From the NCBI GenBank assembly GCA_902826835.1, contig CADEGH010000018.1:1-64000 (forward strand): a stretch of 64,000 bases of DNA, in the 5' to 3' direction. The translations under genes were made by a program, and so were the position numbers. Shown here in pieces: positions 39,978-58,764 of the stretch (position 1 is the first letter of the stretch; every line of letters starts with the position of its first letter). The stretch is from an uncultured bacterium (GTDB lineage Bacteria; Planctomycetota; GCA-002687715). The notes below the pieces were generated by a model. It saw only the letters and a program-made list of their open reading frames with translations, made no database searches and was not told where the DNA came from.

Positions 39978-40025
39978 GCGCAGCAAACTACCAGGAAGCG
40001 TCTCCTGGCTCCGCGCGGGTCTCGC

Positions 40026-41012
40026 TCAAATCCGAAGGGATAGACCGAACTCCGCCTCCAAACTCAAATACCAGGCCTGCCACTCGTCGACGTCGACCGG
40101 TCGCCGAATCAAGTCCTGCTCGATCGCCGTGGCCAGGGTCGCGTAATCGCCACCTTGAGCCGGGATACGGCGGCGAAGTCTCACGAGTTCCCGGACCGGA
40201 GTCCCTCGGCCGCCCGGCACCTCCAAGACGGGACTGACGTCCCCATCCTTCATCCCTGCGAGAGCTCGGCGGACCGGTTCGCTCAACGAAGAAACCGCGA
40301 GCGGGGCCAGGTTTCCACCCTGGGTTCGGCTGGGATGCCGCGAGTAGAGGGTGGCCAATCGTTCGAAGTCAGCCCCAGCTCGAAGCTTTCCGGAGATTTC
40401 CTGGGCTACCGCCGGTTCATCGACGACCAGAATCGAAATCTCCACCCGTTCGGTGGTCAAAGCGTGGTACCGGATGACCCGACTCAGAATCCACCGATCT
40501 TGGGCGGACGCGACCCGAGCGTCCAATTCGGCTTCGAGGCTCCGCCCGAGCACAGATTCCGCATAGAGCTCCGGCGCGGCGCCCGCGCCAAAGTTCTGGG
40601 CGGCCTCACCGATCACCGCCTGACGGGCGCGTCCCCGCTCCGCGTCGCTCTCTCCCGCCGGAAAGGTGATGCCCAATCGACGCGCTTCGCTGTCCGCGAC
40701 ATGTTTGGCGATCAGGCGCGACAGCTCCGCCACCGCCTCGCGGCGCCGCATCGTGAGGTAGGAACGACCGAGGTCGGAGGAGCGAATCTCCTGACCGCCG
40801 ATCGTGGCCAAGACCATGTCTCCACGCTCCGAGCGCCAATCCAGGCTTCGAGCCGAGTCGGCCATCCCATTTGTGGGATGCTCGAGGCGTTTTCCGTCGG
40901 CAACCGATAGGGTCTCGCCCGACGCCCGATCCGGCGCGGGCTGGTGAAGGATCTGGGAATGGCACGCCCCCAGGGCGAGCAGCAGCCCGGCCGAAAGCCA
41001 GCGTGAGCTCAG
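40026..41012 (-). CDS. SurA-like parvulin-type lipoprotein, apparent CTG start
   Basis: This 328-residue protein appears to be an outer-envelope folding factor. The first 17 residues (SSRWLSAGLLLALGAC) form a typical lipoprotein signal with Cys17. A SurA-like N-terminal helical part follows. A parvulin-like domain (about residues 189-283) includes SRTQGGNLAPL, a typical PpiC/SurA segment. No ATG, GTG or TTG lies at the start of this signal. The codon there is CTG at 41012, overlapping the upstream stop as CTGA. The next upstream ATG in frame is at 41120 and would add a long basic extension. The internal ATG at residue 50 would remove the signal. Confidence 0.72.
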   Translation of the reverse strand: MSSRWLSAGLLLALGACHSQILHQPAPDRASGETLSVADGKRLEHPTNGMADSARSLDWRSERGDMVLATIGGQEIRSSDLGRSYLTMRRREAVAELSRLIAKHVADSEARRLGITFPAGESDAERGRARQAVIGEAAQNFGAGAAPELYAESVLGRSLEAELDARVASAQDRWILSRVIRYHALTTERVEISILVVDEPAVAQEISGKLRAGADFERLATLYSRHPSRTQGGNLAPLAVSSLSEPVRRALAGMKDGDVSPVLEVPGGRGTPVRELVRLRRRIPAQGGDYATLATAIEQDLIRRPVDVDEWQAWYLSLEAEFGLSLRI

Positions 41013-42468: not shown

Positions 42469-42909
42469 TCAGCGGTTCAGCATACCGCGAATCAGGGCGT
42501 CGTTGGTGCGTTCCGGGATGAGTGGGACATAGCCCAGGTCGTAGACCCGTTCTTGGCCCCGGGATCGGGCAATGAGTTCGATGCGCCCCCAAAAGCCGCG
42601 GCCGGTGGGATCGTCGGACATTGCCTCGAGGGTGACCCGGTAGCGGAGCCCCGGCTCCCCGGGGACCGGGAAGTCCTTTCCGGCCAAGTCTCCCGGACCC
42701 GCCTTCGTGGATCCGTTCAGCCGGTCCCCAAGGTCGCGCTCCACCTCGGACTGAACTTGGTGCAGATTGATTCCGGCGTCCCAGCGCTCGGTCGCCTCTT
42801 TCTGGAGGGAGAGGGCCACCGTGAAGATGGACATGATTCCGGTCATGCCGATGACCAAGAGGGACATGGCGAGCAGCACCTCGATGACCGTGAAGCCACG
42901 ATTCTTCAC
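42469..42909 (-). CDS. Type II secretion pseudopilin, GspI-like
   Basis: This 146-residue protein begins MKNRGFTVIEVLLAMSLLVIGM, a classical type IV prepilin leader cut before Phe6, with Glu at +5. The short size and position after the GspJ-like gene fit the minor pseudopilin I. The C-terminal domain is beta-rich with no unusual motif. Its start overlaps the upstream gene as ATGA. Confidence 0.8.
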   Translation of the reverse strand: MKNRGFTVIEVLLAMSLLVIGMTGIMSIFTVALSLQKEATERWDAGINLHQVQSEVERDLGDRLNGSTKAGPGDLAGKDFPVPGEPGLRYRVTLEAMSDDPTGRGFWGRIELIARSRGQERVYDLGYVPLIPERTNDALIRGMLNR

Positions 42910-44048
42910 CGAGAGTTCTCCAGGAAGTGAGACCTTTTTTGGGACATCGACATGGTCTTGCGGAAAACCTTACCGACGAACACCGGGCTGCCTACCGGCA
43001 GACTTTCGTGGGCGTTTCCGGAGCGGCGAACCCGCCGGCGCACGCGCAGGTCACCGCCGTCTTTTCCGACGATTTCGACCCATTCGTGCCCGACCTTGGC
43101 GTAGAGGGGGACCCCCTCGGTCGGTTCGGGAATTTCATCACTGGCGGTGACGCGGAGGAGATTGTCATCGGGGCTGGCGGAACGCCGAAGCCGGGTTTCC
43201 GGTCGGGAACCACGAGCCAATTGGAGGACGACCCGGATCGACCTCGGAAAGATGTCGTCCCGAGCATCGGTCAACGAACCCGGGCCAACTGCGAGCGCGA
43301 ACCGATCCTTGGCCAGGATGCCGCGCGTGCTGTCGAAGCGCAAAAGCGAGGTGCCCGCCGCGGTGCTTCCGTCGATCGCCGCATCCTCAAGCCAATCTTC
43401 GCTGGTCTGAGCAAAACTGAGCACCCAAAGGCCGAGAATGTTCGAGGCCACCGGAACCAAGTTTTGGCGCACCCAGTTTGCATCGCGGCTTCCCTCGAGG
43501 GAGGGGTCAAAAAAACCGCCCTGTCCCAAGGCAGGGGCGCGCACTCCGCGATAGAGAGTCAGGAGTCCCTCGCGATCCCCTTGGTCTTGGTCGTCGGGCA
43601 ATAGGACCCAAGCCACCTCGAGAAGCCCACTCGGAGGCGCAATGGACGTGCGTCGTTCCGCTCCGGGATCCGCGCCGATAAAGGCCTCGCCGGCGTTGAT
43701 CGAAGTGCCGGCGCGCCGCAGCACTCCGTGGCCCTGCTCGCCGTCCGGAATCCCTCGGACGATGCGCATGAAGAAACCGTCCCCCCGCGCCGACTGTCCA
43801 CCGAGAGTGTCCGTGTCGACCAGGAATCGACCACTCGCCCCTCCGTGCAGATCCAAGATGTCCCGCTCCAAGTCCTCGAGGATGGGCACGGCTTCGAGAT
43901 AGATTTCGCCCCGCCGCTCACCCTGGCGGTACAGCGCAAAGCTGTTGCGCACCAATTGCGCGAGGAAGACCCCGAGGCTGCCGAGGAGGGCGATCGCCAC
44001 GAGCAATTCGAGCACGGTAAACCCGCGCTCTCGGATGCGTCCGGCCAT
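42906..44048 (-). CDS. Type II secretion pseudopilin, GspJ-like
   Basis: This 380-residue protein has the prepilin leader MAGRIRERGFTVLELLVAIA, with the processing site before Phe10 and Glu at +5. It is longer than the usual GspJ (about 200 residues), and the extra part lies in the C-terminal globular domain. The ATG at 44048 shares one base with the upstream stop (TGATG). The longer open frame upstream runs inside the giant gene and is rejected. It is expected to sit in the I-J-K tip complex. Confidence 0.8.
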   Translation of the reverse strand: MAGRIRERGFTVLELLVAIALLGSLGVFLAQLVRNSFALYRQGERRGEIYLEAVPILEDLERDILDLHGGASGRFLVDTDTLGGQSARGDGFFMRIVRGIPDGEQGHGVLRRAGTSINAGEAFIGADPGAERRTSIAPPSGLLEVAWVLLPDDQDQGDREGLLTLYRGVRAPALGQGGFFDPSLEGSRDANWVRQNLVPVASNILGLWVLSFAQTSEDWLEDAAIDGSTAAGTSLLRFDSTRGILAKDRFALAVGPGSLTDARDDIFPRSIRVVLQLARGSRPETRLRRSASPDDNLLRVTASDEIPEPTEGVPLYAKVGHEWVEIVGKDGGDLRVRRRVRRSGNAHESLPVGSPVFVGKVFRKTMSMSQKRSHFLENSR

Positions 44049-47000
44049 CACCGCAACTCCTCTCGACCGAGGACTCGCGTCTCGTCCAGGTATTCCACTC
44101 GCAATCGTTCGAGATCCGCCGATCGTTTCCAATCGTGAGCCGTGAGCAGATCGGGGGCAAAGGCCCCCGGCAGATACTTGAACCGGACTCTCACGTCGAG
44201 TCCCCGACCCGAGGTGAGAATCATCCCCGGCTCTTTTTCCGTCGGGTCGGAGAATTCGAAGAGCCCGCGGGTTTGGGCCGGATTCACCGACCAAGGCACC
44301 TGGGGATCGGTGCGGCAAATGAGGTCGACATCCACGTGTTGGCCCGGCCGTACTTTTTCGATGGAGATCGAGCGGAAGAACGCGTCGGGGAGGTCGAGAG
44401 AGAAACCGAAGTACGAAAGCTCCGCCGAGTCTTGGCGCGCAACGTAACGATCCCAGTAGCGGAACGGCATCTCCAGAACGATGGAATCCGCGGCGTGACC
44501 GGCCGGCGCGGAGCCGTAACGGCCACGCAGCAAGCCTCCCACCGCTTCACCCTGCTCGTTCAACGCGAGGGGCATGACCAGTTCGCCCCCCTCAATGCTC
44601 GTGTAGTGCAGCATCTCGCTGTCGATGAGCACCGTTCCCCCGTTCTGCGGGAAGATGCGGGCTTCCCCCACCGGGAAGCGTGAGGAGGTCCCATCCACCG
44701 CCGAACCGAGGTCGGAAACGGTGAAAAAATCGAGGAACACCACCTCGGCGCCCAGCCCGTGGTCCGTCGCGATCGAGCCCATGAATCCGCGGGTGCACTC
44801 GAGGAGAGCGGCTCCCCCGTCCGAACTCGCTCCGATCGAGCGAAACGCGATGATCTCCTCGTCGATCTTCACGAGCCCGGCCCGGTTGTTCGGCAACCCC
44901 TGGGGCATGGTCTCGGAGTAGAGAATCTGCCGGCCGTCCGGCAGAACGTAGTAGCGCGGTTCGACGGCCGGATTCCTCGGCTCGCCCAACAACCACTCGT
45001 AACGGGAGATCGGAATTTCGGAGCTACCGGCATCCACGCCGACGGCGCGGCCTCCCCCGGCCCCGGTTCCGGTGCCGGTGACTTGGTTGAACGCGGCGGC
45101 GCTGTGGCTCCAGACGCAGAAGCGTTCAGGGTCGAAGGGGGTGACCCTCAATTCATCGATGGTGGCATCTGCCGACGCGGTATCTCCAGCTGCATTGCCC
45201 CCGGCCAGGCTGCGCGCCTGAGCGCCCAAATTCGGCAACTCGCCGCTCGGGAATTTCAGCAAGCGGCAATAGCCCGTGCGTTCGGCCGGCGATTGGACTT
45301 CGCCATTGCGGGGCAAGCCACGCTGCCGATACTCGGTGCCGACGCTCTCCGTGAACGCGATCCACCCTTGCGCGTCGTAGTCGGGCGCCCGCGGGAAGGT
45401 GACATTTTGCGGCTGCCCGTTTTGCCCGGGCAGCGGAGTCGGCACATTGGCGGGATAATCGATCGCAGCCCAAGCGACCCGAGCGAGCCGGCGATCACGA
45501 CCGTTTTGGCCTTCGATGGTGACGGAGTCCCCGAAACCGGCCGAGGACCACGGCTCGCCGCGGCTCGGCGAGTCCGGCGTCTGCGGGGTCCAATTGGGGT
45601 TATTGATGCTGCCTCGAGCGGAGAAGGAGGCCGTGCGAATGCAGGGCACGACCTCGGTGCCGGACTGCGGACGTCCGTCCGACAAGTCCCGGGTGCCGCA
45701 CTGCTGGCGCATCGGGAAAATTTCCCGCAGCGTCACGTGGGCATTCTGCAGGGAACCGCCCCCCAGGTAATAGTTGCGCAGGATGAAGGCGGCATTCAGC
45801 AGGTACACGCCTTCGTCGCACAGCAGATGGCCGTTTTCCTCGTCGATGTGGTTGTAGCGAATCCACTCGACCAGGTTTTGCTCGAGGGTGTCCGTATTCG
45901 GACTCCCAACTTGCACGAACTCCGGCAGGACGGTCCAGATATTCTGGCCACCAGCGCCCGGAGCATTGCCGCGATACATCTCCGGAGTCTTGTACCCGGA
46001 GACGTCGGTCACCGCGATGCTGATCGGGAACACGCAGCTCAGAATCGGCAGATTGGGAGCTGGCCCGGACCCGGCCAGTCGGACCGGATGAATATGGCGC
46101 AGAGTATCAATGACGGGAGTCCCCGCGGCGCCCGTTCCCGCCCCGGCCGCCAAGATCTCGTTTGGGGGGTTGGGTACGGCCTCGAGGCCGATGAGCTGAT
46201 TCCCGGATCGGCTGCGATAACGAGCGACTTCCAGCGAACCCTGCGGTCCTCCATTCACTGGAACGTCGAGGGAGACGATCATCACGTAGCCGCCACTGCG
46301 CGGGAAGGCGTCAAAGCTCGCGGTACCCAGCGAAGTGGTGGAAAGCGAGAGGATATTGCCGCCCGGCTTGCTCGGATCGTGCACTTCGAGCTGGATAGTG
46401 ATCGGAATCCCGCCTTGACCCTGGAGGGTGATGGGCATCATGGCGTTCGGTTCGAAACTCGCCACGACAAAGGGCCCGAGCGTGTCTTTGAGCTGCCCCC
46501 CGCCGCGCGGGATGGCAATTCCTTGATTGCGGTTGGCGGTAATCGGCGGCAGGGAGTAGCCGAAGATCTCAACCGGCGTTCCCGTGGCATGAGGGAGCGC
46601 TCGGCTTCCCCTCTGGCCTCGCCCCCAAGGTTGCCCCTGGAGAGTGACCACCTGGAAACTCTCCCCCGAGCGTTCGAAAGCGATGGCCTCGGATCCCACG
46701 AGGGCGACGCCTTGGTCCGGCCAGCCCTCCGCACTCTCGACCTGAAAACTCGTGTCGGTGGCCGACATGGTGCCCAGGAGGCGGGTCGTGTATTTGCTCT
46801 TCCCCCGCTTGTAGCCGTCCACTACGAGCGAGAGGTCCGCGGGCTTGGTGCCACGGTAAGCGAATCCCAAGTGGTACCAGGTCTTCGGGAGCCAGAAGCC
46901 CGGGTTCTCCGGCGTCCAGCGAACCTCGGCCACTTCTTCGAGGCGGTCGGTGCGGTCGTCGATGGTGCGATCGTCCACCCGACCCACGAGGTCTCCATTC

Positions 47001-49237
47001 GCGGCGCGCGAGAACTTGACCCAGTCCTCCTGCTCCTCGGCGCCGACGAGATCCAAGAGGGGTGCGTCGCCACCCGCTCCGTTGCCCGTCTCGAACCACA
47101 GATCGAATCGCACCGGATTGGGAGTCGTGCGCTGCATCAGCGAGCCCTGGAAGCGCGGATCCCCGCCGCCCCGACGGCCACCCCGTCGGCCGCCCCCGCG
47201 ACCACCAAAATTGCCAAAGCCGCCCGCGGAGTCGCGCGGATCAAACTCGAAGGGTCCTTTTCCGAGGCGCCAGCCTTGGTCGTCGATGCGTTCGAGGGGC
47301 ACCGAGGGATCAGGAATCCCGAATGCTGGTCCGTCGAAGTGCTGCGTGTAACCCAATTCGTCGACCCGCGCCGTGGCGAGGCGCACGAATCCCTGCTCAC
47401 GATCCGGAAAGACGCCGTTTTGGAACGCCGCGTCCTCGTTCTCCTCGCCGGCTTTTTGGCCGAACATCTCGCCGACATCGAAACCGCCCAGGCGATAGAG
47501 CATCCGGGGGATGCGAGTGGGCGGCACCGCCGTTGGGCTCACCCAGCGGTCGATCGGATGCGGATAGGTCGCGACGTACTTGCCGGCCCGCGCTCTCAGA
47601 ATGGGATCCTCAAAGTCGGCTTGGGTGTCGAGAAGGTGGGTCAAGAGACCGGTCGGCGCCACGTGCACACGTTCTCGCACGCGCAGTCGGGCCAATTCGC
47701 GCCCGCTTTGATCGGCTACCACGGAAGCCCCTTCGAGCCGGAAGTGATCGTAGGACGCGAAGCAGAATGGGACCGTCGAATGAAATAGAAGAGAGTCGTT
47801 TGAATCCACCGCGTTGCGGAAGATCGCGTGCAGATGATCGGGAGAGAAAATTCCCAGACTGCCGACGGTCAAGCTCTCGAGCACTTGACGGAGCTGCTGG
47901 AAGTCGGCAATTGGTCGGCTCTGGATGATGGCCTCAGCGGCCACCACCGCCGCTTGACGCGTGACCCGGCCGGTCGAGCCCCGAGGCCGACCGAAACTCA
48001 ATTGAACGCCTTCCATCACCCGGAGGAGGACCTCCTTCGGAGCGGTGTTGATATTGACAGGCTGGCGCAGAAGCGGTTGGACGTAAGTTCTTCCGGCGAC
48101 GTAAGGCCGCGAGGTCGGCCCCGCGAGAATGATCATTCCGAACCCGCCGCCTCGTCCTCCCCCTCCGCCGCCGCCTCCCCCGCCGCGATTCGACACGATC
48201 ATGCCGAACTCGATGGATTGGCCGTCGTAGATGCGCACGACGGTGCCCGGATTGAAGCCCTCGGAGGAGGCGACGTTGACGGGAAAGCCGTTGCCGTCGT
48301 CGGTCGCGGGATCGATATCGCGAGTCACCCGGACCGGCTCTCCGAACGCCCCCGATTGCGGCCGCCGACCTTGGAAGGAAAACGTCCGGTCGATCAGATC
48401 GACTTCGTTCGCCGACAGGGTGGAACGACCGAGCAGAGCAATTTCCTTGACGTAACCGACGAGGGTCGGCTCGCGATACCCACCCTCGGCGCGCGGCGAA
48501 GCAAACGGCAACATCGCCAATTCCCGGGCGCGATCGTCGAGAACAAAAGCTTCCGCGGCGTGGGCGCGGGCGCGCATTCCACCCTTGAGTCCACGCTGGC
48601 ATTGGAGGAAACGATTCCCGTCGCGACGCCCGTAGGAAATCACCTCACCCTCGATATTGATGAATCCGCCGGTGGCCGGGAATGCCGAGGCGTCTTCGAC
48701 CAGGATTTCGGCCGCGGTGTCCGTGAGCTCGTCGGTGAGCTCGGTTCGCCCGAGCGTGGCTGCGATCAGAAAGGTCGGCGAAGCGTGCAGGTTGGGATAC
48801 GCATGTTCGTCACGCACCCGAAGATCGACGGTGGCTCCTCTGGAGTTCTGATTGCGAAACAGAGGCACCCCGTCGGGATCGGTGACCGGTTCACCCTTCT
48901 TATTGAGCAAGTCGAGGGGAACCCGCATCTCCTCCTCGGTGTCCACGTCGGCCTGGCCGATTCCGACCGCCGCATTCAAATTGCCGCCGGCGCCGAGGAT
49001 CTGCTCTTCGGCGGCATGCCCGGACTCAAGTCGGAAGCGGGCGTATTTCAACATGGCGTCGAGGCGAGCCCTCGCCTGCGCCCGCGCCTCCGGCTTCACA
49101 CTCGCTCGGCTCTGATGAGTGGCGGTGAGGAGAAACGGCGCCGCCAACATCATCAGCGCCATCAGGATGGTCAAAACCATCAAGAAGGCGACTCCGGCGT
49201 CAGGACGAATCTCGGTCGAAGGCGGCCGCTGGTTCAT
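44048..49237 (-). CDS. Giant GspK-like pseudopilin with repeats and LamG-like domain
   Basis: This 1,729-residue protein has the short N-terminal membrane helix of GspK (GVAFLMVLTILMALMMLAAP, residues 15-34), without the Glu+5 that other pseudopilins carry. The GspK hallmark VNINTAPKEVLLRVMEG (394-410), followed by a helical part, marks the SAM-like domain. A Gly-rich run interrupts it at 351-366 and another lies at 672-692. A LamG-like lectin segment spans about 707-815 (FDLWFET, then TWYHLGFAYRG and LVVDG). Four repeats of G-x-[VI]-x-I-x2-E-x-[IL]-x-[YF]...RG-x2-G...H lie near 190-233, 842-892, 1453-1504 and 1533-1590. Standard GspK is about 320 residues. ATG at 49237 is chosen because it starts the membrane segment. 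Confidence 0.8.
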   Translation of the reverse strand: MNQRPPSTEIRPDAGVAFLMVLTILMALMMLAAPFLLTATHQSRASVKPEARAQARARLDAMLKYARFRLESGHAAEEQILGAGGNLNAAVGIGQADVDTEEEMRVPLDLLNKKGEPVTDPDGVPLFRNQNSRGATVDLRVRDEHAYPNLHASPTFLIAATLGRTELTDELTDTAAEILVEDASAFPATGGFINIEGEVISYGRRDGNRFLQCQRGLKGGMRARAHAAEAFVLDDRARELAMLPFASPRAEGGYREPTLVGYVKEIALLGRSTLSANEVDLIDRTFSFQGRRPQSGAFGEPVRVTRDIDPATDDGNGFPVNVASSEGFNPGTVVRIYDGQSIEFGMIVSNRGGGGGGGGGGRGGGFGMIILAGPTSRPYVAGRTYVQPLLRQPVNINTAPKEVLLRVMEGVQLSFGRPRGSTGRVTRQAAVVAAEAIIQSRPIADFQQLRQVLESLTVGSLGIFSPDHLHAIFRNAVDSNDSLLFHSTVPFCFASYDHFRLEGASVVADQSGRELARLRVRERVHVAPTGLLTHLLDTQADFEDPILRARAGKYVATYPHPIDRWVSPTAVPPTRIPRMLYRLGGFDVGEMFGQKAGEENEDAAFQNGVFPDREQGFVRLATARVDELGYTQHFDGPAFGIPDPSVPLERIDDQGWRLGKGPFEFDPRDSAGGFGNFGGRGGGRRGGRRGGGDPRFQGSLMQRTTPNPVRFDLWFETGNGAGGDAPLLDLVGAEEQEDWVKFSRAANGDLVGRVDDRTIDDRTDRLEEVAEVRWTPENPGFWLPKTWYHLGFAYRGTKPADLSLVVDGYKRGKSKYTTRLLGTMSATDTSFQVESAEGWPDQGVALVGSEAIAFERSGESFQVVTLQGQPWGRGQRGSRALPHATGTPVEIFGYSLPPITANRNQGIAIPRGGGQLKDTLGPFVVASFEPNAMMPITLQGQGGIPITIQLEVHDPSKPGGNILSLSTTSLGTASFDAFPRSGGYVMIVSLDVPVNGGPQGSLEVARYRSRSGNQLIGLEAVPNPPNEILAAGAGTGAAGTPVIDTLRHIHPVRLAGSGPAPNLPILSCVFPISIAVTDVSGYKTPEMYRGNAPGAGGQNIWTVLPEFVQVGSPNTDTLEQNLVEWIRYNHIDEENGHLLCDEGVYLLNAAFILRNYYLGGGSLQNAHVTLREIFPMRQQCGTRDLSDGRPQSGTEVVPCIRTASFSARGSINNPNWTPQTPDSPSRGEPWSSAGFGDSVTIEGQNGRDRRLARVAWAAIDYPANVPTPLPGQNGQPQNVTFPRAPDYDAQGWIAFTESVGTEYRQRGLPRNGEVQSPAERTGYCRLLKFPSGELPNLGAQARSLAGGNAAGDTASADATIDELRVTPFDPERFCVWSHSAAAFNQVTGTGTGAGGGRAVGVDAGSSEIPISRYEWLLGEPRNPAVEPRYYVLPDGRQILYSETMPQGLPNNRAGLVKIDEEIIAFRSIGASSDGGAALLECTRGFMGSIATDHGLGAEVVFLDFFTVSDLGSAVDGTSSRFPVGEARIFPQNGGTVLIDSEMLHYTSIEGGELVMPLALNEQGEAVGGLLRGRYGSAPAGHAADSIVLEMPFRYWDRYVARQDSAELSYFGFSLDLPDAFFRSISIEKVRPGQHVDVDLICRTDPQVPWSVNPAQTRGLFEFSDPTEKEPGMILTSGRGLDVRVRFKYLPGAFAPDLLTAHDWKRSADLERLRVEYLDETRVLGREELR

Positions 49238-50259
49238 CGCACGACTCCTGACAAATCGACTTTGAGCTCGCGCCGCTCGTCTTCGAGGCGGACCGGGATA
49301 CTGAGGGGAGACGAATGCAACCTCGGATCGAGTCGACCCTCGGAATCGAAGCGAACCTCGATGGGATTTTCCATGTCGAGCCGAACTCCCCGCTCCAACT
49401 CGATGACCTCCGCCTCTTCCATGGTGCGATAATTGATTTCGTCCAAGAATCCGTGGAATCCGCGACCCCCGAGGCGGAGGCGGTCGCTCACGTCGCCTTC
49501 CGCGAGGCGACGCAGGGGGACGTTGGCGTCCCCCACCTTCTTGGTGGCCTCGATCACGCCGTGAACGCGCAACAGCGCTTCGAACCCGTCGAAGGCGAGT
49601 TCCAGCCGAACCCACGCTTCCTTCGCAACCACCCCCGGTGCCGTTTTCAGCTCCAGGCTCGAACCCTGTCCGTCAATTTCAAAGGTGGCTTGCACGGCCC
49701 CGTTCTCTTCGAGTTTCCACTGGAAGAGCCGCCCGTAACTGGCCAGTTCCCCACCCATCGGGTCGGAGTCCGGCCACACGTCCATCGTGAGCACAAAGCC
49801 ACGCTGCGGGTTCAAGTCATCGGCGGGATCGACCACGATGGTGTCCTGACCGTCCAACTCCGCGCAGTCGCGCACACTGCCCCCCGTGACGACCTTGGCA
49901 CCCCCGAGCGCCGCAAACCGATTGCGCCCGGCCAAAACCCGCCCCCCACTGCTCTCCCCGAAGCCCACCGAAACGGCGTCGCGCGCCAATTCCAAACGCA
50001 CTTGGCTTGGATCGCCAGGCATGAACAGCACGCGGGCCAACGCCCCCTGGTCCCGCGCGGAGTGGCGAGCCATCTGGAGCGCGGACCTCGCCATGCGGAT
50101 TCCCCCGTCGAGGGCCGTCCCCTGCGACGTGCGCGACAGTCCACCCAGGCTGATCCCGAGCAGCACACCGACAATGGCCATGACCGCCAACATCTCCATC
50201 AGGCTGAATCCGCCGCGCGCGGGAGCGCCGGGGAAGGGTGCTTCTGCCATCGCGCTCAT
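49234..50259 (-). CDS. Pseudopilin GspH-like with lectin-like domain
   Basis: This 341-residue protein has the prepilin leader ARGGFSLMEMLAVMAIVGVLL (processing before Phe18, Glu at +5). An N-terminal pseudopilin part is followed by a beta-sandwich segment of about 130 residues (about 160-285), including VRLELAFDGFEALLRVHGVIE and RGFHGFLDEINYR. This is the pattern of LamG-like or concanavalin-type lectin domains. GspH is normally about 170 residues. It overlaps both neighbours by 4 bases (ATGA). Confidence 0.78.
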   Translation of the reverse strand: MSAMAEAPFPGAPARGGFSLMEMLAVMAIVGVLLGISLGGLSRTSQGTALDGGIRMARSALQMARHSARDQGALARVLFMPGDPSQVRLELARDAVSVGFGESSGGRVLAGRNRFAALGGAKVVTGGSVRDCAELDGQDTIVVDPADDLNPQRGFVLTMDVWPDSDPMGGELASYGRLFQWKLEENGAVQATFEIDGQGSSLELKTAPGVVAKEAWVRLELAFDGFEALLRVHGVIEATKKVGDANVPLRRLAEGDVSDRLRLGGRGFHGFLDEINYRTMEEAEVIELERGVRLDMENPIEVRFDSEGRLDPRLHSSPLSIPVRLEDERRELKVDLSGVVR

Positions 50260-50921
50260 TCTTTCTTGAAATTGGTGACATCGTCGTCGGTGTTGAACTC
50301 GCGGTCCATGCCCGCGCTGATCAACTGGAACGACGTTTTATTGAAGTATTCCTTCGTCTTCGGATGCCGATACGGCTTGGCCCGCAGCACGTCTTCGATG
50401 CCACTGATGCGCCCCTGGCTCTTGGCCTCGATCGAGGCGTAATCGCGCCAATGGAAATAGGCGAGCGGAGTGCCCCAGACATCACACAGCTCGAAGAGAT
50501 CCTTGTCGGCAAAGGTAGTCACCTGTGCCTGGGTACGATCGCCATCGAGATTTTCGAGCACAAAGCCCTCGAGTTGGTCAATCGCGATCGCGGCGTTGGC
50601 ACCCCGCCTCGAAAGGCAGACGACCACCGATTCGATCCCGAGGTTTTCCTCGTTTCCGCCGGCGCCAATTCCCGGGAAGCTCTCGGCATCGAGTTCCGAA
50701 GGAGGGTAGTCGCCATTCTTGGGGTCGTTCTGGTATCCCTCCAGCGCCGTCGCCAAGGCGGTCAGCGCGGTTCGAACCTTCGTTTCGTCGCCCTGCCGCA
50801 AGAGCCTCGGCAGTCCCACGACCCCCAAACCTATGAGGGTGGCCATGATCGCCATCACCACCAAGAGCTCGATGAGGGAAAAGCCGCGAGTCCGCACAAA
50901 TCCGGTTCCTTGGTCTTTCAT
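50256..50921 (-). CDS. Major pseudopilin GspG-like
   Basis: This 221-residue protein has the leader FVRTRGFSLIELLVVMAIM, cut before Phe15, with Glu at +5. GspG is usually the major pseudopilin, about 140 residues; this one is longer. The C-terminal part keeps the GspG-like layout LCDVWGTPLAYF followed by SAGMDREFNTDDDVTNF, which matches the typical GxDG.. calcium-type end of GspG. It is coupled by ATGA overlaps to the TPR protein upstream and the H-like pseudopilin downstream. Confidence 0.85.
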   Translation of the reverse strand: MKDQGTGFVRTRGFSLIELLVVMAIMATLIGLGVVGLPRLLRQGDETKVRTALTALATALEGYQNDPKNGDYPPSELDAESFPGIGAGGNEENLGIESVVVCLSRRGANAAIAIDQLEGFVLENLDGDRTQAQVTTFADKDLFELCDVWGTPLAYFHWRDYASIEAKSQGRISGIEDVLRAKPYRHPKTKEYFNKTSFQLISAGMDREFNTDDDVTNFKKE

Positions 50922-53734
50922 GACTTCTTCAGGGTGATCATGGTGACGTTGTCCGCGGCGAGGCGGACCGGCTTGTCCAGCAAAGCATGAGCAAAGAGTT
51001 GCAATTCGATCTTCCCCGGCCGCTTGGAGAGGCCTGGCAGTTCGAGATTGGACACCGCCGCCACCTGATTCACCAAGATGCGGTAGGTGCTCTTTTGGAT
51101 GTCCTGCACTTCGATTCCGATGCGGACGGAACCACCGCCCGTTGCCACCGACTCGGGCAAGTCGATCCACTCCGTCGCCTTCGATTGTTGAATGGTCCGA
51201 TATGCGAGCTTGCCCGCTGGTGTCATGGCGACCTGCAATCCGATGAACGGAACCAGGCGTCCGTCCCGGCGTTGCAGGCCTGGGTAAGTTTCGGGCTCTT
51301 TGGCGGTGGGGTTGAACGCGAGCAGGCCCACTCCTTTGGTGGCTCCCGATTCGGGATCCAACGCGACATCGACCGAGAAGCTCGAGAACTGCCGGCCGTT
51401 CAGCTCCTGGTAGAGCACCGTCGGATCGTCCGAGATCTCTTTCTGAGTGCCCTGGATCAGGAGCCGACCGTCCTCAAGCGCCAGATTCAGGCCGCGGCTC
51501 AACACCCGCTGCCAACCACGCAGGATCTGGCCCGTGCGATTGAAGTCGTCGGTCCAGACTTCCTTGTTCAGGTCGTCTTCGAGTGCGTTCAGCGAGCTCT
51601 CGGCCCAGGCGACGAGAGTCGGATCCGGTTTGGGATCCTTGCGTTCGATCAGCAGGCGAAGGCGCCGGCGCACCTCTTCCGTTTTTTCGCGCGAGTAGTG
51701 GTAGTAGGCGGTGGCGGATTGGATGAACGACTCGCGTTCGATCGGTCCGTCGACTCGCTTGAGAAGGGTCTCCGCGTCGCCGAGGCGCCGCCGGCGGACT
51801 TCAGTCACGATTCGACGCCCGAGCAGGTCGGGGAACGACGACTCGAGGCTTTCGGCTCGTTCGTAGTATCGCGCCGCCTCGACCGGATTGCCGAGTCGGA
51901 ACGCCACGTCCCCGAGCGCCACCAGCACGTCGGCGCGATCGGGCTCCCGCTCGAGCACCCATTGGAATCCCGTACGGGCTTGCTCGAGATCGCCGACCGC
52001 CAAGAGCAGGCGCGCGCGCTGCCACTGCGTCGCCTGATCGCTCGGATCGGCCTTGGCCGCCAGTTCGACGGCGCCCAGGGCCCCTTCGAGATCCCCGGTC
52101 GCTTCCGCCAAGTAGGACAGCGCGGTGTGGATCCAAGCGGCCGAGACGGGGTCCTGACTCAGCGCCAAATCGAGACGGCTGCGAGCCTCGGAGAACTGGC
52201 GCTCTCTCAAAGCCACGATTCCGCTCAAGAATGACAAGGTTCCCGAGTTCGGATGGGCGGTCCCGGCCCTGGCCAAAATGTCTCTCGCCGCGGCCGGTCC
52301 CCGCCCCATCAGGGCCGTAATTACGAGTCCGGCCTGGGCCCATGGCTCACCTCCGCTGCGGTCGACCGAGCGGCTGAAGTACGCCTCCGAGTTTCCGAGT
52401 TCGCCCAGCGCGAGCCAGCAGCGGCCGATCAACCACAGGGCATGAGCATGCTGATCCCGGTCGAGTCCGCCCCCGCCGTCCAGTCGCTTCAGCGATTGGA
52501 GGGCCAGGTCGTACTGCGCCGCGATGACTTGAGTCTCACCGAGACCAAGATGCGCGGGCGGACACTGCGGATCCTGCTCCAACGCGGCCATGAACGCCTC
52601 GCGAGCTCGCTCCGGAAGGCCCAGGTCGAGGAAGAGCCGACCGCGGCGAACGAGTAACGGCACGCTCTTCGGAGCGGTCGCCAGCGCCTCCTCCAAGACC
52701 TCCATTTCCCGTTCGTAGCGGTAGCGCTTGCGCTGGGTATCCGCCAACAGGACCGCCGCCTTCTCCGACCAGAGTCCCTTGGCCTTCATGCCCCGCAGGT
52801 GGTCCTCGGCGAGCTGAATCTCGCCCGCGTCGAACACAAATTTGGCGAGATCCTCGTTCCCCGCGAGATCTTCGGCGGGGACCTGATGCCGACGGATTCC
52901 GTAGGAGTTGCGGGGCGTGTCCGCGAAGTCGATGCGTTGCACCAGCGAGCCGTTGATGTTGTTGCGCGGGCGGGCCTTGCCGGCGCCCCGATCCTCCTTG
53001 AACACCAACTTGATCGCTTCGAGAGCCCTTCGCCGATCCGCTTCGGAGACAACCACATCGCCGCGGATGCGCTCGATCTCAAGCTTCGCGAGCCAGCGGT
53101 CCGGCCCTTTCTTTTCGTACTCGACGACTTCGCCGAACGCAATTTCTCCGGACTGCCACGTCACCCGATCGAGGCCCTTTTTGCGATCGTCCTCGGCGAG
53201 GCTGCTGCGGCGTTCCGCTTCCTTGCGGCGCAGACGTTCCTCTTCGGTGAGGCGGATGCGGTCCGCTAGGGTAAGTCCGACGGAGCTTCGGTCGACCTGA
53301 GACAGGTCTGATTCGGGCGACTCGGGGTCGGTGGCGGACGCGACGGTATCCGTCGCAGACTTACCGGGTGCCGCCGCCTTCGCGGTGGCGTCCGGCACGA
53401 TTTCGTGGCGCTGCTTCGTGGCGAGCTTGGGGCCGACCGGCAAGCCGACCGGCAGGCCGGGATGCAGCAGGCGGGGAAACGGCGGTGGGACCAGCGGCCG
53501 CAGCTCAAGGTCCTTCGTCTCACGCGGCGCCAGGAAGGTGTTGCGCCCACTCGCCGACCAACTCGTCTCCTCGGGGCTCAACCGAAAGGGCGTGAGCGCG
53601 AGGGCCGTCGGCACGGCGTCGGGAGCGCGACCGCGGCGCGTCGCTCGCGGCGCGGCCTCGCTCGACTGACCGAGGAACCAAATTCCGGCGAGGAGGCCTA
53701 GGACCACGAGAAAGGAGATCTGTTCCTTGGTCAT
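50918..53734 (-). CDS. Membrane TPR protein with concanavalin-like C-terminal domain
   Basis: This 938-residue protein has an N-terminal membrane helix (about 7-21), then a Pro/Ala-rich low-complexity stretch and a charged helical region. An array of TPR-like repeats (about 325-700) follows. The C-terminal 230 residues begin WTDDFNR and run through beta-rich segments with VGLLAF and GIEVQD. They look like the jelly-roll domains of DUF1080 or concanavalin-type proteins. It replaces, in position, the GspC/PilP gene of standard systems. It may link inner-membrane parts to the pseudopilus. Confidence 0.65.
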   Translation of the reverse strand: MTKEQISFLVVLGLLAGIWFLGQSSEAAPRATRRGRAPDAVPTALALTPFRLSPEETSWSASGRNTFLAPRETKDLELRPLVPPPFPRLLHPGLPVGLPVGPKLATKQRHEIVPDATAKAAAPGKSATDTVASATDPESPESDLSQVDRSSVGLTLADRIRLTEEERLRRKEAERRSSLAEDDRKKGLDRVTWQSGEIAFGEVVEYEKKGPDRWLAKLEIERIRGDVVVSEADRRRALEAIKLVFKEDRGAGKARPRNNINGSLVQRIDFADTPRNSYGIRRHQVPAEDLAGNEDLAKFVFDAGEIQLAEDHLRGMKAKGLWSEKAAVLLADTQRKRYRYEREMEVLEEALATAPKSVPLLVRRGRLFLDLGLPERAREAFMAALEQDPQCPPAHLGLGETQVIAAQYDLALQSLKRLDGGGGLDRDQHAHALWLIGRCWLALGELGNSEAYFSRSVDRSGGEPWAQAGLVITALMGRGPAAARDILARAGTAHPNSGTLSFLSGIVALRERQFSEARSRLDLALSQDPVSAAWIHTALSYLAEATGDLEGALGAVELAAKADPSDQATQWQRARLLLAVGDLEQARTGFQWVLEREPDRADVLVALGDVAFRLGNPVEAARYYERAESLESSFPDLLGRRIVTEVRRRRLGDAETLLKRVDGPIERESFIQSATAYYHYSREKTEEVRRRLRLLIERKDPKPDPTLVAWAESSLNALEDDLNKEVWTDDFNRTGQILRGWQRVLSRGLNLALEDGRLLIQGTQKEISDDPTVLYQELNGRQFSSFSVDVALDPESGATKGVGLLAFNPTAKEPETYPGLQRRDGRLVPFIGLQVAMTPAGKLAYRTIQQSKATEWIDLPESVATGGGSVRIGIEVQDIQKSTYRILVNQVAAVSNLELPGLSKRPGKIELQLFAHALLDKPVRLAADNVTMITLKKS

Positions 53735-54591
53735 GGAGTCTTTCCTTCCGGCTCGGCGGCCCCATCTCGCTGGATGTCCACCGCAGCCACCGTGAGTTTC
53801 AGTTCCACACGTCCCCGATCGAGAGGGTCACCGGCTCGCACTCCACGGTTGGCTGCCCCGGGAGGCAGATCGAGGCTGCGGATCGTCGCTTCCTCCACCA
53901 CCAGGCCGCGTCCCACCGGAAGCGGTCGCGAGTACTCTTCCGTCAGCGAAAAAATCGCCCGCGGATGTCCCACGATCACGAAGCTCACGGGATGTTTCAC
54001 GACAAACGCGGGCGCGGCGGTTCCCCCGCCGATCTTGGCTTTGCCTTGCCCCGCGATCTCGATCCGCTCGATCCGGGCAATCCCGCTCTCGAGCACCGAA
54101 GTGTCGATGCGAATGACCGATTCGAGCACCTGTTGCACGACATCCAAGCCACGCAGGTACCAATCGATATCGCGCCGGGTCGTAGGGATCGAATCCGGCA
54201 AGCCGAGGCGCATGTCGACGTCCACGCTGCGAACCGCGCATGCCTCGACGAGGCCGCGCCGAAGTCCGTCGGCGATGCGGTTGTAGTGAAGGTCGGGATC
54301 ACGCACCTCCGCGGTGAGTTGGAAGCCGGGAGCCGGCACTCGATGCAGGGCCGCGGTCAGCTCGCGCAAAGCGGTATCCGCCTGATCGCGCTGCACTCGC
54401 AGTTTCTGGAGGTCCACACCCGCGGGCAGACTGCGCTCGATGTCGCCGCGCGCTTTGCGAATCTCGTTGCGCGCCCGCATCGTGGACGAATCGAAGAAGG
54501 CGCCGATGACGAGATACAGCACGAAGAAGGCAAGCGCCCCCAAAATGAGGGTGACAAAGAAGCGCTTGTGCTCTTGGAAAAGTTCGCCCAT
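53731..54591 (-). CDS. PilO/GspM-like inner-membrane protein
   Basis: This 286-residue protein has one N-terminal helix (about 12-31), a coiled-coil (about 45-90) and a ferredoxin-like C-terminal domain, the standard PilO/GspM layout. The ATG at 54591 begins MGELFQEHKR, one base after the upstream stop; earlier in-frame codons overlap the PilM-like gene. It should pair with the PilN half of the upstream fusion protein. Sequence identity to known PilO cannot be judged, so the call is by layout and context. Confidence 0.72.
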   Translation of the reverse strand: MGELFQEHKRFFVTLILGALAFFVLYLVIGAFFDSSTMRARNEIRKARGDIERSLPAGVDLQKLRVQRDQADTALRELTAALHRVPAPGFQLTAEVRDPDLHYNRIADGLRRGLVEACAVRSVDVDMRLGLPDSIPTTRRDIDWYLRGLDVVQQVLESVIRIDTSVLESGIARIERIEIAGQGKAKIGGGTAAPAFVVKHPVSFVIVGHPRAIFSLTEEYSRPLPVGRGLVVEEATIRSLDLPPGAANRGVRAGDPLDRGRVELKLTVAAVDIQRDGAAEPEGKTP

Positions 54592-54592
54592 G

Positions 54593-56287
54593 TCAGTTCC
54601 CTCCCCCCGAGGTTGGAGCTGGATCCGCGGGTTCCGGGAAGACATCGATGGTGGCCTCGAAGCGAAGCCGCTTCGAGCCGACCGCCTCACCGCCCGATGT
54701 CTTGGTCAGATCTACGGACGGACGTCCCTCCGAGCCCTGAATACCGGTCTGCATCTGCTCGAGGGCGGTACTCGATTGCACGTCGACCCCCAAAACCTCG
54801 CCGGTCACCTTCGCCAGGGAGCGTGAAATTTTCCCCTTCTTCGGATCAGCCGGATCGACGGGGACCGCGATACGTCGGACATCCACTTGTTCGACCCAAA
54901 TGCTGTCCGGGCTGTGGTCCTGAAGGAGGCGGGGGGCCTTGCCGAGGGTGAACCCGGGGCGGGTGAGCTCCTGCAAGATGCGCTGGCGGTCCCCCGTGGC
55001 CTGGATCCGATTGCGCAACGCATCGAACTCGTCACTTTGACGCCGCGCCTGCTGCGCCTGCGAAGTCATACGACGAGCCTCGTTTTTCAGGTCGGTCTCG
55101 GTGGACTTGAGCGAGAAGAAACGAAGGCCGAGGAAGGCCAAACAGGCCGCGCCCGCGGCCATGAGCCAGGCGGTGCGCCGCTTGAACTCGCGGCTCTTGC
55201 GCGTCGCATCCGAGACGATGTCGAGGACGAAGGACTCCGGCTTGGCACCCGTAACTGCCAAACCGAGAGCGACCGCGTAGCGGCCCGGATCTTCGTTCCA
55301 GGCATCCGCTTCGTCGCCCGGCAGAGCCGACAAATCGAGGCCGGAGCTCGGCTGAAAGCGCTCAACCTTGCAACGCATGCTCGACGCCAAGTACTCGTCG
55401 AGTCCGCGGAGCGCACCGGTGCCGCCCGAGAGGAGGATCCGGGCGAGATTGAGATCTTTGATGCCGGTCTGAGCGCGGCTGAACGCGAGGCTCGACTGAA
55501 CCATCGAAGCCAACTGGCCGGCCGGCCCGAGCAAGGCATTGGCCACTCGTTCCTCCTTGCCGGAGGAATAGGCGGCCTTCCCGCGGGGAGCGACGTTGCC
55601 CAGTTGGTCCTTTTGGTGCTCGGCGTCTTCCTTGGAAAGTCCTAGAGTCTGCGCGACGGATTCGGTCAGAAGCGCGCCCCCCACCGGCAGATTGCGGGCG
55701 AAGAGGAGTTCGCTGTCCTTCAGGATCACGATCTCGGTGTTGCGATCACCGATGTCCACGAGCCCCACGTACTCCCCGTCATGCAGTTCTCCGGCCTGCA
55801 AGTACGCGTTGAACAGGGCGATCGAGGAGGGCGTCGCGCCGCGAGGCGGGCCCAGGGACTGCGCGAGAGCTCGGGTGCGCGCGTCGAGAATGCGCTCTTT
55901 GACCACCGCCACGAGAACGCTGTCCCCGTCGCCCTTGCCGGGAATGTCCAGCAGGTTGTAGTCGCACGCGAGAGGTTCACCGGCTTGGTGAGCCATCTCC
56001 CGGACCTCGAAGTCCATGAGGAGGCGCAGACGCCACGTCGGTACCGGCGGCACCGACGTGTAGCGGATGATGAGTTCTTTGCCGCTGATTCCGTAGCGAG
56101 CCCCCGGGGCCTTGACCAAAGCCTTGGCCACGGCGGGGATGGTGGCGAGCGAACCCTCGTCCCCGTCGCTGCGGTCCTCGACGGGGATGGTCAGGACGCG
56201 CTGGAGCTTGAACACCGGTCCGGCGTATTCACCTACCACCACCCGGGTCGCCGTAGAGCCGAGGTCGATTCCAATCGTGCGAGCCAT
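54593..56287 (-). CDS. PilM-PilN fusion (GspL-like)
   Basis: This 564-residue protein starts with an actin-like PilM domain. The phosphate motifs are IGIDLGSTATRVVV (5-18), VGLVDIGDRNTEI (174-186) and LLSGGTGALRGL (285-296). One membrane helix follows (372-391), then a PilN-like part with a coiled-coil and a periplasmic alpha-beta domain. In type IV pili these are two proteins; GspL of type II systems has a similar fused layout. Its start shares one base with the FHA gene stop (TGATG). Confidence 0.8.
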   Translation of the reverse strand: MARTIGIDLGSTATRVVVGEYAGPVFKLQRVLTIPVEDRSDGDEGSLATIPAVAKALVKAPGARYGISGKELIIRYTSVPPVPTWRLRLLMDFEVREMAHQAGEPLACDYNLLDIPGKGDGDSVLVAVVKERILDARTRALAQSLGPPRGATPSSIALFNAYLQAGELHDGEYVGLVDIGDRNTEIVILKDSELLFARNLPVGGALLTESVAQTLGLSKEDAEHQKDQLGNVAPRGKAAYSSGKEERVANALLGPAGQLASMVQSSLAFSRAQTGIKDLNLARILLSGGTGALRGLDEYLASSMRCKVERFQPSSGLDLSALPGDEADAWNEDPGRYAVALGLAVTGAKPESFVLDIVSDATRKSREFKRRTAWLMAAGAACLAFLGLRFFSLKSTETDLKNEARRMTSQAQQARRQSDEFDALRNRIQATGDRQRILQELTRPGFTLGKAPRLLQDHSPDSIWVEQVDVRRIAVPVDPADPKKGKISRSLAKVTGEVLGVDVQSSTALEQMQTGIQGSEGRPSVDLTKTSGGEAVGSKRLRFEATIDVFPEPADPAPTSGGGN

Positions 56288-58764
56288 CAGCGTTCTCCCT
56301 CCGGCTTCGAGCGTAGTCGATCGATCAACGCCTTCGCTTCCGTGGCCGCCTCCGTCGAGGGAAAGCCGGAGACGATGGAAGCGGCCAAGAGCTCGGTGAG
56401 CACTCGTTTTCCCGAGCCCTCGTAGGCTTTGGCTCGCAAGAGGCGGCGATTGGCCTCCGCCGTTCTTCCTGGGGCCAGCGAGGATTCGAGAGCCTGACTG
56501 GCCGCGGTGGCGATTTCGTCGAACTGGGAGCCGAGGCTCGTTCCCGAGTAGCGGGCCCGCTCCGCCCCGAGTTCCGCAAAGAGCGTGGTGTCACGGCTCA
56601 GGGTCCGGAAGAAAATCGCGTCTTCGGCGCGCCGCTTCAGGGCGGCGACCCGCGACTTCCCGGCTTCCTGGATCTCCGACTCGAGCCGACTCGCGTCGGC
56701 CACGATGCGGGTGGCGAACGGGAAGCGCGCTCGCAAGTCGTCGAGGAGAGCGAGGGCGGTTCCACTCTTGCCTTCTCGCGAGGCGGTAGTCGCTTGGCGC
56801 AAGAGCGCGGTTGCATCCTCCTCGTCTTTCTCGAAGGCCAACCGGAAGCTCATGTCCACCGCGTCAAGCCCGGTGGCGACGATGGAGAGTCGGCCGGTCT
56901 TTGCATCGAAGTTGCAGTTGAGCCTCTGGGCGGCGCCGCCCGACGCGACGAAGTCGACGCGGGCGCGATCATCGCCGCTGCCCACGATCAGCGCGGTGGC
57001 CGGCAGTCCGGCAAAGTCGGTGGTGTAACGACGACCGGTCTCACCATCGAGCACCGTCACTTCGAGATCGACGCCCGCCCGCGGCACGAGGGGCAGGGTT
57101 ACGAGCCCCGCCTTCCCGACGGCCTGGCCTTCGAGCGCGAAGCGGAACTTCCCTTCACCCGGCTCGAGCCGAGCGCGCAAATCGCCGAGGCCATGCAGAA
57201 GAGAGCCGGTCAGGACGCCGCCCTGCGGCGAGGCGCTTGGTACCCAGAGTTCCGCCTGCGGAGCCGTCAAGCCACCGGCGAGGGAATGGCTGACTCCGAC
57301 CCCGTCGATCACGGTGCGCCCGTAGCGCAGAAGACGCATCGTGCCCACCGGATCGAGACAGGCTCGGAAGGGGGCAGCATCGACGGTGCTTCCGGCAGGG
57401 GGAGAGCCCGTCAGCACAAACAAATCGTCCAAAGCCACTTCGCCCTGGCCCAAGGCCCCGACCAGCACGGTGGCCGCGTCAGCGCCGGCCGGTGGCCACA
57501 CGGTGGCTTCGTACTCCGACCATTCGGTCGCACTCTTCGGGCGCAAGTTGAACCAAGTGCGGCCGATCTCGGCCCGGCCCTGTTCGCCCTCGCCTCGGGT
57601 CATCCACGCGAGACCCATGACCGCCAACGCCCCCTCGCCGGTCGCGGAGAAGCGAACGAGGTAGGGCGTGTCCGGTGAAAGCGGAACCACTTCCGACAGC
57701 GCCACGAACGAAAGGGGGGCGGCGGCTTCCGATCTCGACCAATGAAACCCGGAGCGCCCGCTGCGCGCCCACTCCGGGGACTCGCTCCCCGAGGCGCTGG
57801 AGACTTCGTCGCCGCGCAACCACTGGGGAGGATTTTCGACCGTTTCCGGCGCCGCTTCGAAAGACCACGCGTGGTCGGCAATGAGGTTCGCCCCTCGGTC
57901 CAGCGCGCGGGTACCAGATGTGGTACTTCCGGTGGCGCGCGTCAAGAGCCACGCCACCGCTCCCCCGAGGAGGAGAATGACGCCGAGGCTCACCAGGTTC
58001 CAAATCTTCTCGCTCTTCGGAACCGCCGCGGAGAATTCGAAGCTCGTGTCATCGGCGAGCTCCGATGAGTCCATCGTGCGGGTGAACTCCGCCGATTCGC
58101 TGCCCCCCCCGGGCGCGGTGAAGTCCTTCGGATCGCCGACCCCGTAGGTGGCCTCGATGCTGCCGAAGCGCACGACGTCCCCCTTCTCGAGGGTGGCTTG
58201 GCTGCATTTGCGACCATTGACGTAGGTGCCGTTGCTCGAGCCGACGTCCCGAAGCTCGCACTCCGATCCGGAGCGGCGCAGCTCGGCGTGATCGCCGGAG
58301 ACCGACGCATCCTTCAGGATGAGATGGTGGCGAGCGTTGCGCCCGACGGTGACACTCCCCTCCGGGAGCATCACCACCTCGCCCGCGCGGCCGGCGCCGC
58401 CCAGAACAAGGAAGTGCTTTTCCTCGAGGGAGATGTCGTCGTCGCCCCAGGCCGCGGCCGGAGCGGCGGTGACCGCGGGCTCCTCGGCGTCCAGGAAGCG
58501 CATCGTCGCTTTACCGATGCTGATTTCGTCGCCGTCCTGGAGCTCGAACTTCGTCACCTTGCGTCCATTGACGAGGGTTCCGTTGCTCGAACCCTGGTCT
58601 TCGACGAACCAGGCATCCTTTTCGCGGGTGAACTTACAATGGGTACGCGAGGCTTCCGCGACTTTCAGAACGATCGCATTCTGGGCAACGCGGCCCAGAG
58701 TGTCTCCGTCCTTGAGATAGACGTCACGGACATCCTCGCCCTCACGGATGACGAGCTTGGGCAT
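56287..58764 (-). CDS. Tandem-FHA membrane protein with sugar-binding-like periplasmic domain
   Basis: This 825-residue protein has two cytoplasmic FHA domains that read phosphothreonine. The first (about 3-92) has SSNGTLVNGRKV at 59-70. The second (about 118-207) has GR at 141-142 and SSNGTYVNGRK at 176-186. One membrane helix (254-276) follows. The periplasmic part begins with a CBM4/9-like galactose-binding fold (about 292-451), with the classic PDTPYLVRFSA, EWSEYEA and LDDLFVL segments. The rest is a helical coiled part. It is the first gene of the operon and could pass a phosphorylation signal to the secretion machinery. No kinase is in the window. Confidence 0.8.
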   Translation of the reverse strand: MPKLVIREGEDVRDVYLKDGDTLGRVAQNAIVLKVAEASRTHCKFTREKDAWFVEDQGSSNGTLVNGRKVTKFELQDGDEISIGKATMRFLDAEEPAVTAAPAAAWGDDDISLEEKHFLVLGGAGRAGEVVMLPEGSVTVGRNARHHLILKDASVSGDHAELRRSGSECELRDVGSSNGTYVNGRKCSQATLEKGDVVRFGSIEATYGVGDPKDFTAPGGGSESAEFTRTMDSSELADDTSFEFSAAVPKSEKIWNLVSLGVILLLGGAVAWLLTRATGSTTSGTRALDRGANLIADHAWSFEAAPETVENPPQWLRGDEVSSASGSESPEWARSGRSGFHWSRSEAAAPLSFVALSEVVPLSPDTPYLVRFSATGEGALAVMGLAWMTRGEGEQGRAEIGRTWFNLRPKSATEWSEYEATVWPPAGADAATVLVGALGQGEVALDDLFVLTGSPPAGSTVDAAPFRACLDPVGTMRLLRYGRTVIDGVGVSHSLAGGLTAPQAELWVPSASPQGGVLTGSLLHGLGDLRARLEPGEGKFRFALEGQAVGKAGLVTLPLVPRAGVDLEVTVLDGETGRRYTTDFAGLPATALIVGSGDDRARVDFVASGGAAQRLNCNFDAKTGRLSIVATGLDAVDMSFRLAFEKDEEDATALLRQATTASREGKSGTALALLDDLRARFPFATRIVADASRLESEIQEAGKSRVAALKRRAEDAIFFRTLSRDTTLFAELGAERARYSGTSLGSQFDEIATAASQALESSLAPGRTAEANRRLLRAKAYEGSGKRVLTELLAASIVSGFPSTEAATEAKALIDRLRSKPEGER

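Follow-up and report, generated by a model that had tools for sequence, protein, structure and literature searches.

What kind of machine is specified by a tightly packed planctomycete operon in which pseudopilins and parts of an inner-membrane platform carry domains of a type usually associated with sugar binding? The operon (positions 42469-58764, minus strand) lies in the window analysed here, namely the first 64,000 nucleotides of contig C18 (C18:1-64000; 64% G+C) in a 6.09-Mb genome, and is part of a cluster of approximately 45 kb that is present across uncultured planctomycetes. Of a divergent type IV filament machine, the third in this genome, it very probably encodes one half, made up of the pseudopilus and the inner-membrane platform. 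The best overall explanation, namely that this third machine handles glycan-bearing cargo and leans to uptake, is given a probability of roughly 40%.

The nine genes, whose start and stop codons overlap or lie only a few bases apart, follow the order FHA, PilM-N, PilO, TPR, GspG, GspH, GspK, GspJ and GspI, their coordinates and family matches agreeing with a preliminary description of the same DNA, in which nine tightly coupled genes with these FHA, PilM-N, PilO and TPR proteins and five pseudopilins had been recognized. The named relatives are metagenome-assembled genomes of uncultured Planctomycetota. Because Pfam scans of single proteins were too weak, each component family was built from at most 40 relatives.

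The first gene (56287..58764, minus strand as are all features given below) encodes a membrane protein with two N-terminal FHA domains (Pfam FHA, 9e-38), one transmembrane segment at approximately residues 253-278 as judged from hydropathy, and then a periplasmic ectodomain. It is followed by a GspL-like, Amuc_1101-like PilM-PilN fusion (54593..56287; PilM_2, 7.9e-19; Amuc_1101_fam, 1.2e-40), whose profile, compared with the PDB, retrieved PilM (3.7e-39) and then PilN (3.5e-6) in a single chain, which is the architecture of GspL. The next product (53731..54591), with an N-terminal transmembrane segment (hydropathy), is PilO/GspM-like; the best PDB match of its profile is Amuc_1100 (3e-4), ahead of PilO, and T2SSM_b is only weakly matched, in 3 of 32 relatives (best value, 5.7e-4). 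From their sequences, the PilM-PilN fusion and the PilO-like protein correspond to GspL and GspM. Pfam and NCBIfam scans of the operon proteins gave no family match to GspC, the part of which could be played by the N-terminus of the membrane-anchored TPR protein (50918..53734; TPR families down to 2.4e-22; N-terminal transmembrane segment from hydropathy).

The pseudopilins comprise a GspG-type major subunit (50256..50921; N_methyl, 1.3e-6), with T2SSG matched in 20 of 32 relatives and a conserved C-terminal D..DD (calcium-site) motif in their alignment, the GspG of the window, taken singly, being under the NCBIfam cut-off; a GspH-type protein with an apparently inserted LamG domain (49234..50259; N_methyl, 3.4e-5, and alignment); and a giant GspK-type protein of 1,729 residues (44048..49237), identified by NCBIfam T2SS_GspK at its N-terminus (1.6e-7) and by T2SSK in 12 of 24 relatives. 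Position and family matches indicate the GspJ-type (42906..44048; N_methyl, 1.5e-4; gspJ, 0.0074) and GspI-type (42469..42909; N_methyl, 2e-5; pilV, 2.1e-5) members. The Pfam cut-off for N_methyl is exceeded by GspG, GspH, GspI and GspJ; the GspK sequence lacks Glu5, as is normal for GspK. A published census of the type IV filament superfamily, of which the machine is a member, does not contain the word Planctomycetes in its main text (PMC6668835).

Jelly-roll domains in four components

The four beta-sandwich domains of the preliminary description, i.e. LamG in GspH and in GspK, a ConA-like domain in the TPR protein and a CBM4/9-type domain in the FHA protein, all hold, and they became apparent from the relatives, the window proteins taken singly being under the Pfam cut-offs for all four. 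In GspH, the LamG region (approximately residues 130-285; 49405..49872) is matched by Laminin_G_3 in 27 of 35 relatives (best value, 5.5e-18), and the family profile finds LamG chains of neurexin and arabinanase in the PDB. In the alignment, the pilin part at the N-terminus precedes LamG, which is in turn followed by a conserved C-terminal stretch; since the latter looks like the GspH strands, the domain appears to be inserted rather than appended. The GspK core (approximately residues 708-815; 46793..47116) is matched by Laminin_G_3 in 8 of 24 relatives (best value, 8.8e-8), and profile-profile comparison with the GspH LamG by hhalign gave a probability of 94% (E, 8.8e-8). The full-length GspK profile gave nothing useful against the PDB. 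An AlphaFold2 model of GspK residues 535-1729 (mean predicted local distance difference test score, pLDDT, 74.8; 85-93 in much of the core) retrieved mainly laminin-G/neurexin domains with Foldseek, and also LamG-bearing phage proteins; the whole-chain TM-scores are low because single domains only are matched.

For the C-terminal 227 residues of the TPR protein (residues 712-938; 50921..51601) no usable sequence match was obtained in the profile search, and AlphaFold2 predicts with high confidence (pLDDT, 94.4; predicted TM-score, 0.91) a ConA-like jelly roll, the nearest structures of which are GH16 glucanases and ConA-type lectins (Foldseek, 1.5e-7); the GH16 catalytic motif is absent from its sequence. 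Structure prediction, which had been suggested as a check, returned lectin-like folds for both this domain and GspK. The ectodomain of the FHA protein contains a CBM4/9-type beta-sandwich (approximately residues 293-455; 57400..57888), its profile matching the carbohydrate-binding modules (CBMs) of a hyaluronate lyase (E, 3.3e-5) and of a xylanase (8e-5) in the PDB, with Pfam CBM_4_9 found in 3 of 28 relatives (best value, 2.3e-4). The same components carry these domains across many families of the phylum, and their presence is not due to chance. Sequence profiles and models point to sugar-binding-type folds in all four, from which glycan binding itself is predicted.

GspK also contains repeats. 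Four copies were detected with an iterated hidden Markov model at residues 183-238 (48524..48691; 7.6e-19), 837-895 (46553..46729; 1.5e-14), 1446-1507 (44717..44902; 3.1e-17) and 1528-1595 (44453..44656; 8.8e-21), the relatives having mostly 4-5 copies of this module of approximately 55 residues (FP..G.v.I..E.I.Y....C.RG..GT....H..G..V). It resembles Rcc01698_C, a phage/gene-transfer-agent tail domain that is matched in 9 of 24 GspK members (best value, 7.7e-6). Against the PDB the repeat profile gave weak matches only, with an E of 0.5 to phage tip protein J.

That standard secretion or pilus parts lack such domains, as had been stated, is too strong, for pilins with a ConA module are widespread (PMC8179133) and one of them binds glycans (PMC9934059). 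The likeness lies in the pilin N-terminus joined to a ConA/LamG-type module, as in Streptococcus sanguinis PilC and the PF13385 pilins (PMC8179133, PMC9934059): GspH combines a class III signal peptide with such a module (N_methyl, Laminin_G_3), and GspK also carries LamG. Unlike those pilins, the operon distributes its domains among four proteins of a single envelope machine, two of them pseudopilins and two in the inner membrane, and the LamG of GspH is apparently inserted instead of appended.

The wider cluster, its conservation and its motors

The secretin, which had been reported as absent, is encoded just beyond the edge of the window, the apparent absence being an edge effect. Upstream of the operon and on the same strand are found, going outwards, a PMT-like TPR protein, AsnB, a HAD hydrolase and a first secretin with TPRs (secretin 2, C18:64433-67165); then a sulfatase-fold protein, two ExbDs, ExbB, two TPR proteins and a further TPR-secretin (secretin 1, C18:75525-78875); and finally a membrane protein with fibronectin-like repeats, a second PilO-like protein and a second PilM-N fusion. 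The distances from the FHA gene to the ends of the two secretin genes upstream are 5.7 and 16.8 kb. The MshL, Amuc_1098, PilQ and GspD models all match the secretins with similar strength and below their cut-offs. The order secretin 1, ExbB, ExbD, ExbD, secretin 2, HAD recurs in six families (f1, f15, f18, f27, f32 and f49), and a contig of f6 keeps the core order, with no ExbB/D detected on it; in genomes of f1 and f15 the operon has the secretin cluster immediately upstream, and in a genome of f27 the cluster adjoins it on the opposite strand. A search of 46 genomes with secretin 2 gave more than 200 bits in 38 of the 39 operon carriers, none of the seven non-carriers exceeding 160. In one conserved cluster, components L, M, G, H, I, J and K are joined by two TPR-secretins of their own and by a proton-channel set of ExbB/ExbD.

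The survey of gene order proposed in the preliminary description shows that it recurs across Planctomycetota. At 40 loci around the best PilM-N matches in relatives, the complete set of nine genes keeps its order in 23 (in two of these apart from an open-reading-frame extension artefact), approximately nine more agree up to the end of the fragment, and four (L071, L072, L082 and L084) are without GspK there, with a large GspK or a match elsewhere in the genome. A profile of the C-terminal part of GspK finds a match in 195 of 392 sampled genomes of the phylum, mostly in frames of 1,300-2,300 residues. In highly complete, isolate-like genomes that are without the giant GspK, the matches were confined to remote pieces, among them a short GspH, a PilM and a TPR-secretin; G095 (L182) and G058 (L185) carry a TPR-secretin and PilM-N, with short pseudopilins also in G095. 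This remote version is perhaps an ancestral or reduced form.

The sequence models also relate the cluster to the Amuc_1098-1101 complex of Akkermansia, likewise of the PVC superphylum, in which a TPR-secretin has PilM-like and PilO-like partners. Both PilM-N fusions of C18 match Amuc_1101_fam better than pilM (1.2e-40 versus 1.6e-21, and 6.4e-39 versus 3e-29), whereas the PilM of the type IV pilus of the same genome, a built-in control, prefers pilM (8e-70 versus 5.6e-42). The match of secretin 1 to Amuc_1098_fam is a long one, and N-terminal TPRs are likewise a feature of the Akkermansia secretin (PMC4960237).

Neither a GspE ATPase nor GspF is found within C18:1-95000, the nearest being on contigs C1, C3, C7 and C35, so that the view that they are encoded away from the operon was correct. 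Contig C1 encodes a canonical type II secretion system (T2SS), in which GspE exceeds the NCBIfam cut-off and GspD and GspG come within approximately 10 bits of theirs; GspF, H and J are also present, and a GspK of 414 residues is on C5. A type IV pilus is encoded on C35 (PilM over the cut-off, PilQ, PilC, PilT and pilins). Since both systems are separate in the genome, the operon specifies a third machine, which probably does something other than either. At 182-187 kb of C7 two PilB-type ATPases, PilT and GspF are encoded with no pilins nearby; one of the ATPases has an MshE-type c-di-GMP motif. With three GspF proteins in the genome, a third motor is available. The assignment of the C7 GspF/PilB/PilT set to the operon by co-occurrence was unsupported, as C7-type GspF is also found in genomes without the operon, and the pairing is a guess.

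Cargo and direction of transport

With the position of the K/J/I/H complex taken from T2SS and type IV pilus biology, a GspG pseudopilus would carry this complex at its tip, and an ATPase and GspF from elsewhere in the genome would drive its movement in both directions; the LamG domains of GspH and GspK would then point into the secretin lumen or to the outside. At the secretin, large cargo bearing glycans would be engaged by the LamG-bearing tip and the repeat modules; in the periplasm, the TPR-ConA and FHA-CBM domains would receive it or hand it over. The double FHA domains would couple the platform to phosphorylation signalling. Lectin-type domains along the path from the tip to the inner membrane fit the handling of glycan-bearing cargo.

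In planctomycetes, the transport of large polysaccharides over the outer membrane has been associated with fibres and crateriform structures, to which genes were not assigned; dextran binds the pili-like fibres, and uptake is energy-dependent and sensitive to the protonophore carbonyl cyanide m-chlorophenylhydrazone (CCCP) (PMC5394234). For Akkermansia, a review reports that the accumulation of mucin products in internal compartments depends on genes for pili and a periplasmic complex, the mucin use locus (PMC12418764); a study of mucin enzymes draws the import of large mucin sections (PMC11790493). Uptake into the periplasm is, by analogy, slightly favoured over secretion, because a canonical T2SS already exists in the genome, the cluster includes an ExbBD motor, Akkermansia offers a parallel, and planctomycetes have dextran-binding fibres and CCCP-sensitive uptake. 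Glycan cargo together with uptake is put forward tentatively, at somewhat less than even odds. A more ambitious version is doubtful: a phylum-wide glycan import machine distinct from TonB/SusCD, in which a lectin-tipped pseudopilus working through the TPR-secretins, with the ExbB/ExbD motor, would draw polysaccharides or glycoproteins into the periplasm as a counterpart of the Akkermansia mucin-uptake pili.

Several points weigh against glycan uptake. Glycan binding is a putative property read from the folds, and in the GspH alignment no conserved ligand-binding residues stand out from those of the fold core. With 19 matches, LamG folds are frequent in this genome; they often bind proteins, and the jelly rolls could serve as protein-binding modules. 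The cluster has no ATPase or GspF, and the candidate C7 module is also present in non-carriers. The matches to the Akkermansia models, although significant, are far under the equivalog cut-offs (140 versus 650 and 97 versus 750 bits), and the likeness is better taken as a lead to common ancestry than as membership. Genomes of 99-100% completeness, which are probably isolates, mostly lack the giant GspK; the fibres of Planctopirus limnophila and Gemmata obscuriglobus are from the same phylum, and the isolates that showed uptake may be without the operon. The published uptake phenotypes may for this reason belong to another machine.

The reverse direction would be obtained if the operon specified a second, divergent T2SS exporting large glycoside hydrolases or glycoproteins, the jelly rolls recognizing sugar- or CBM-bearing cargo. 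The pseudopilin set G, H, I, J and K and the L and M equivalents are shared with the T2SS, as are secretins in the cluster, and two peptidyl-prolyl isomerase (PPIase)-type chaperones downstream are what would be expected for the folding of exported proteins. Yet the genome already has a canonical T2SS, ExbBD and TPR-secretins are not T2SS parts, and the secretins and PilM-N suit non-T2SS models as well or better; the operon and its cluster also differ from a T2SS in the giant GspK with LamG and repeats, the LamG of GspH, the FHA and TPR-ConA proteins, the missing GspE/GspF and the lack of a recognized GspC. This outward reading is considered unlikely, if still to be reckoned with. The jelly rolls might instead be purely structural or protein-binding parts of an envelope-spanning filament system that handles no glycan, in keeping with the lack of a conserved ligand site in GspH, with the neurexin/laminin domains, often protein-binding, that are nearest to the LamG of GspH and GspK, and with the anchoring of two of the four domains to the inner membrane. 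What makes this less probable again is that a single system holds four independent domains, from two or three fold families, each of a kind typical of sugar binding.

As modular pilins with a ConA module are adhesins (PMC9934059) and such modules are found in GspH and GspK too, an adhesive pilus exposed at the surface and tipped with lectins, like S. sanguinis PilC, for attachment without transport, was also considered; it is improbable, leaving the CBM and ConA domains on inner-membrane proteins, the twin secretins and ExbBD unexplained. With the type IVa pilus the operon and its cluster share PilM, PilN and PilO homologues and a secretin, but have T2SS-type minor pseudopilins including GspK, and no PilA-like major pilin, PilB, PilC or PilT. 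An ordinary type II system with random insertions, for which the T2SS-like component types might be invoked, is effectively ruled out by the architecture and gene order conserved across the phylum, the same insertions being found in the same components of many families, and by the ordinary T2SS elsewhere in the genome. What stands from the earlier interpretation is a machine of T2SS/type IV pilus type whose components carry sugar-binding-type folds; the missing secretin and the contrast with standard parts do not.

In the open-access literature searched, no description was found of a conserved machine that has such domains in four of its components and combines a giant, repeat-bearing GspK with twin TPR-secretins and ExbBD. 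The cluster would also take the modular-pilin idea beyond single adhesive pilins, to an entire envelope machine. The operon is a concrete candidate for gripping, importing or exporting large carbohydrate-bearing molecules. Because the cluster is a defined gene set that approximately half of the sampled phylum shares, and its lectin-type domains are in fitting parts, the question of how large polysaccharides are moved over the planctomycete outer membrane becomes testable.

Flanking genes

Between the operon and secretin 2, the PMT-like TPR membrane protein (58905-61817; PMT_2, 1e-4, and TPR) and the asparagine synthase AsnB (61801-63537) are both kept in relatives, and may glycosylate or otherwise modify components of the machine. 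The sulfatase-fold protein with TPRs (C18:67286-69151) lies between ExbD and secretin 2 in most relatives; its identification as a polysaccharide sulfatase was rejected, for the Cys/Ser-x-P-x-R motif reads T-L-P-A-H. Past secretin 1, the fibronectin-like repeats of the membrane protein were judged by eye from the sequence, with no Pfam match, and the second PilO-like protein was assigned by position. On the other side, an exported protein with a zinc-ribbon/DnaJ-like CxxC at its C-terminus (41009..42457) directly follows GspI in most relatives, and further downstream a PPIase (40026-40979), ScpB (39327-39986) and a PpiD/SurA-like protein (36988-39228) are found, with Rotamase matched at 3.6e-7 among them, in an order that is kept in relatives.

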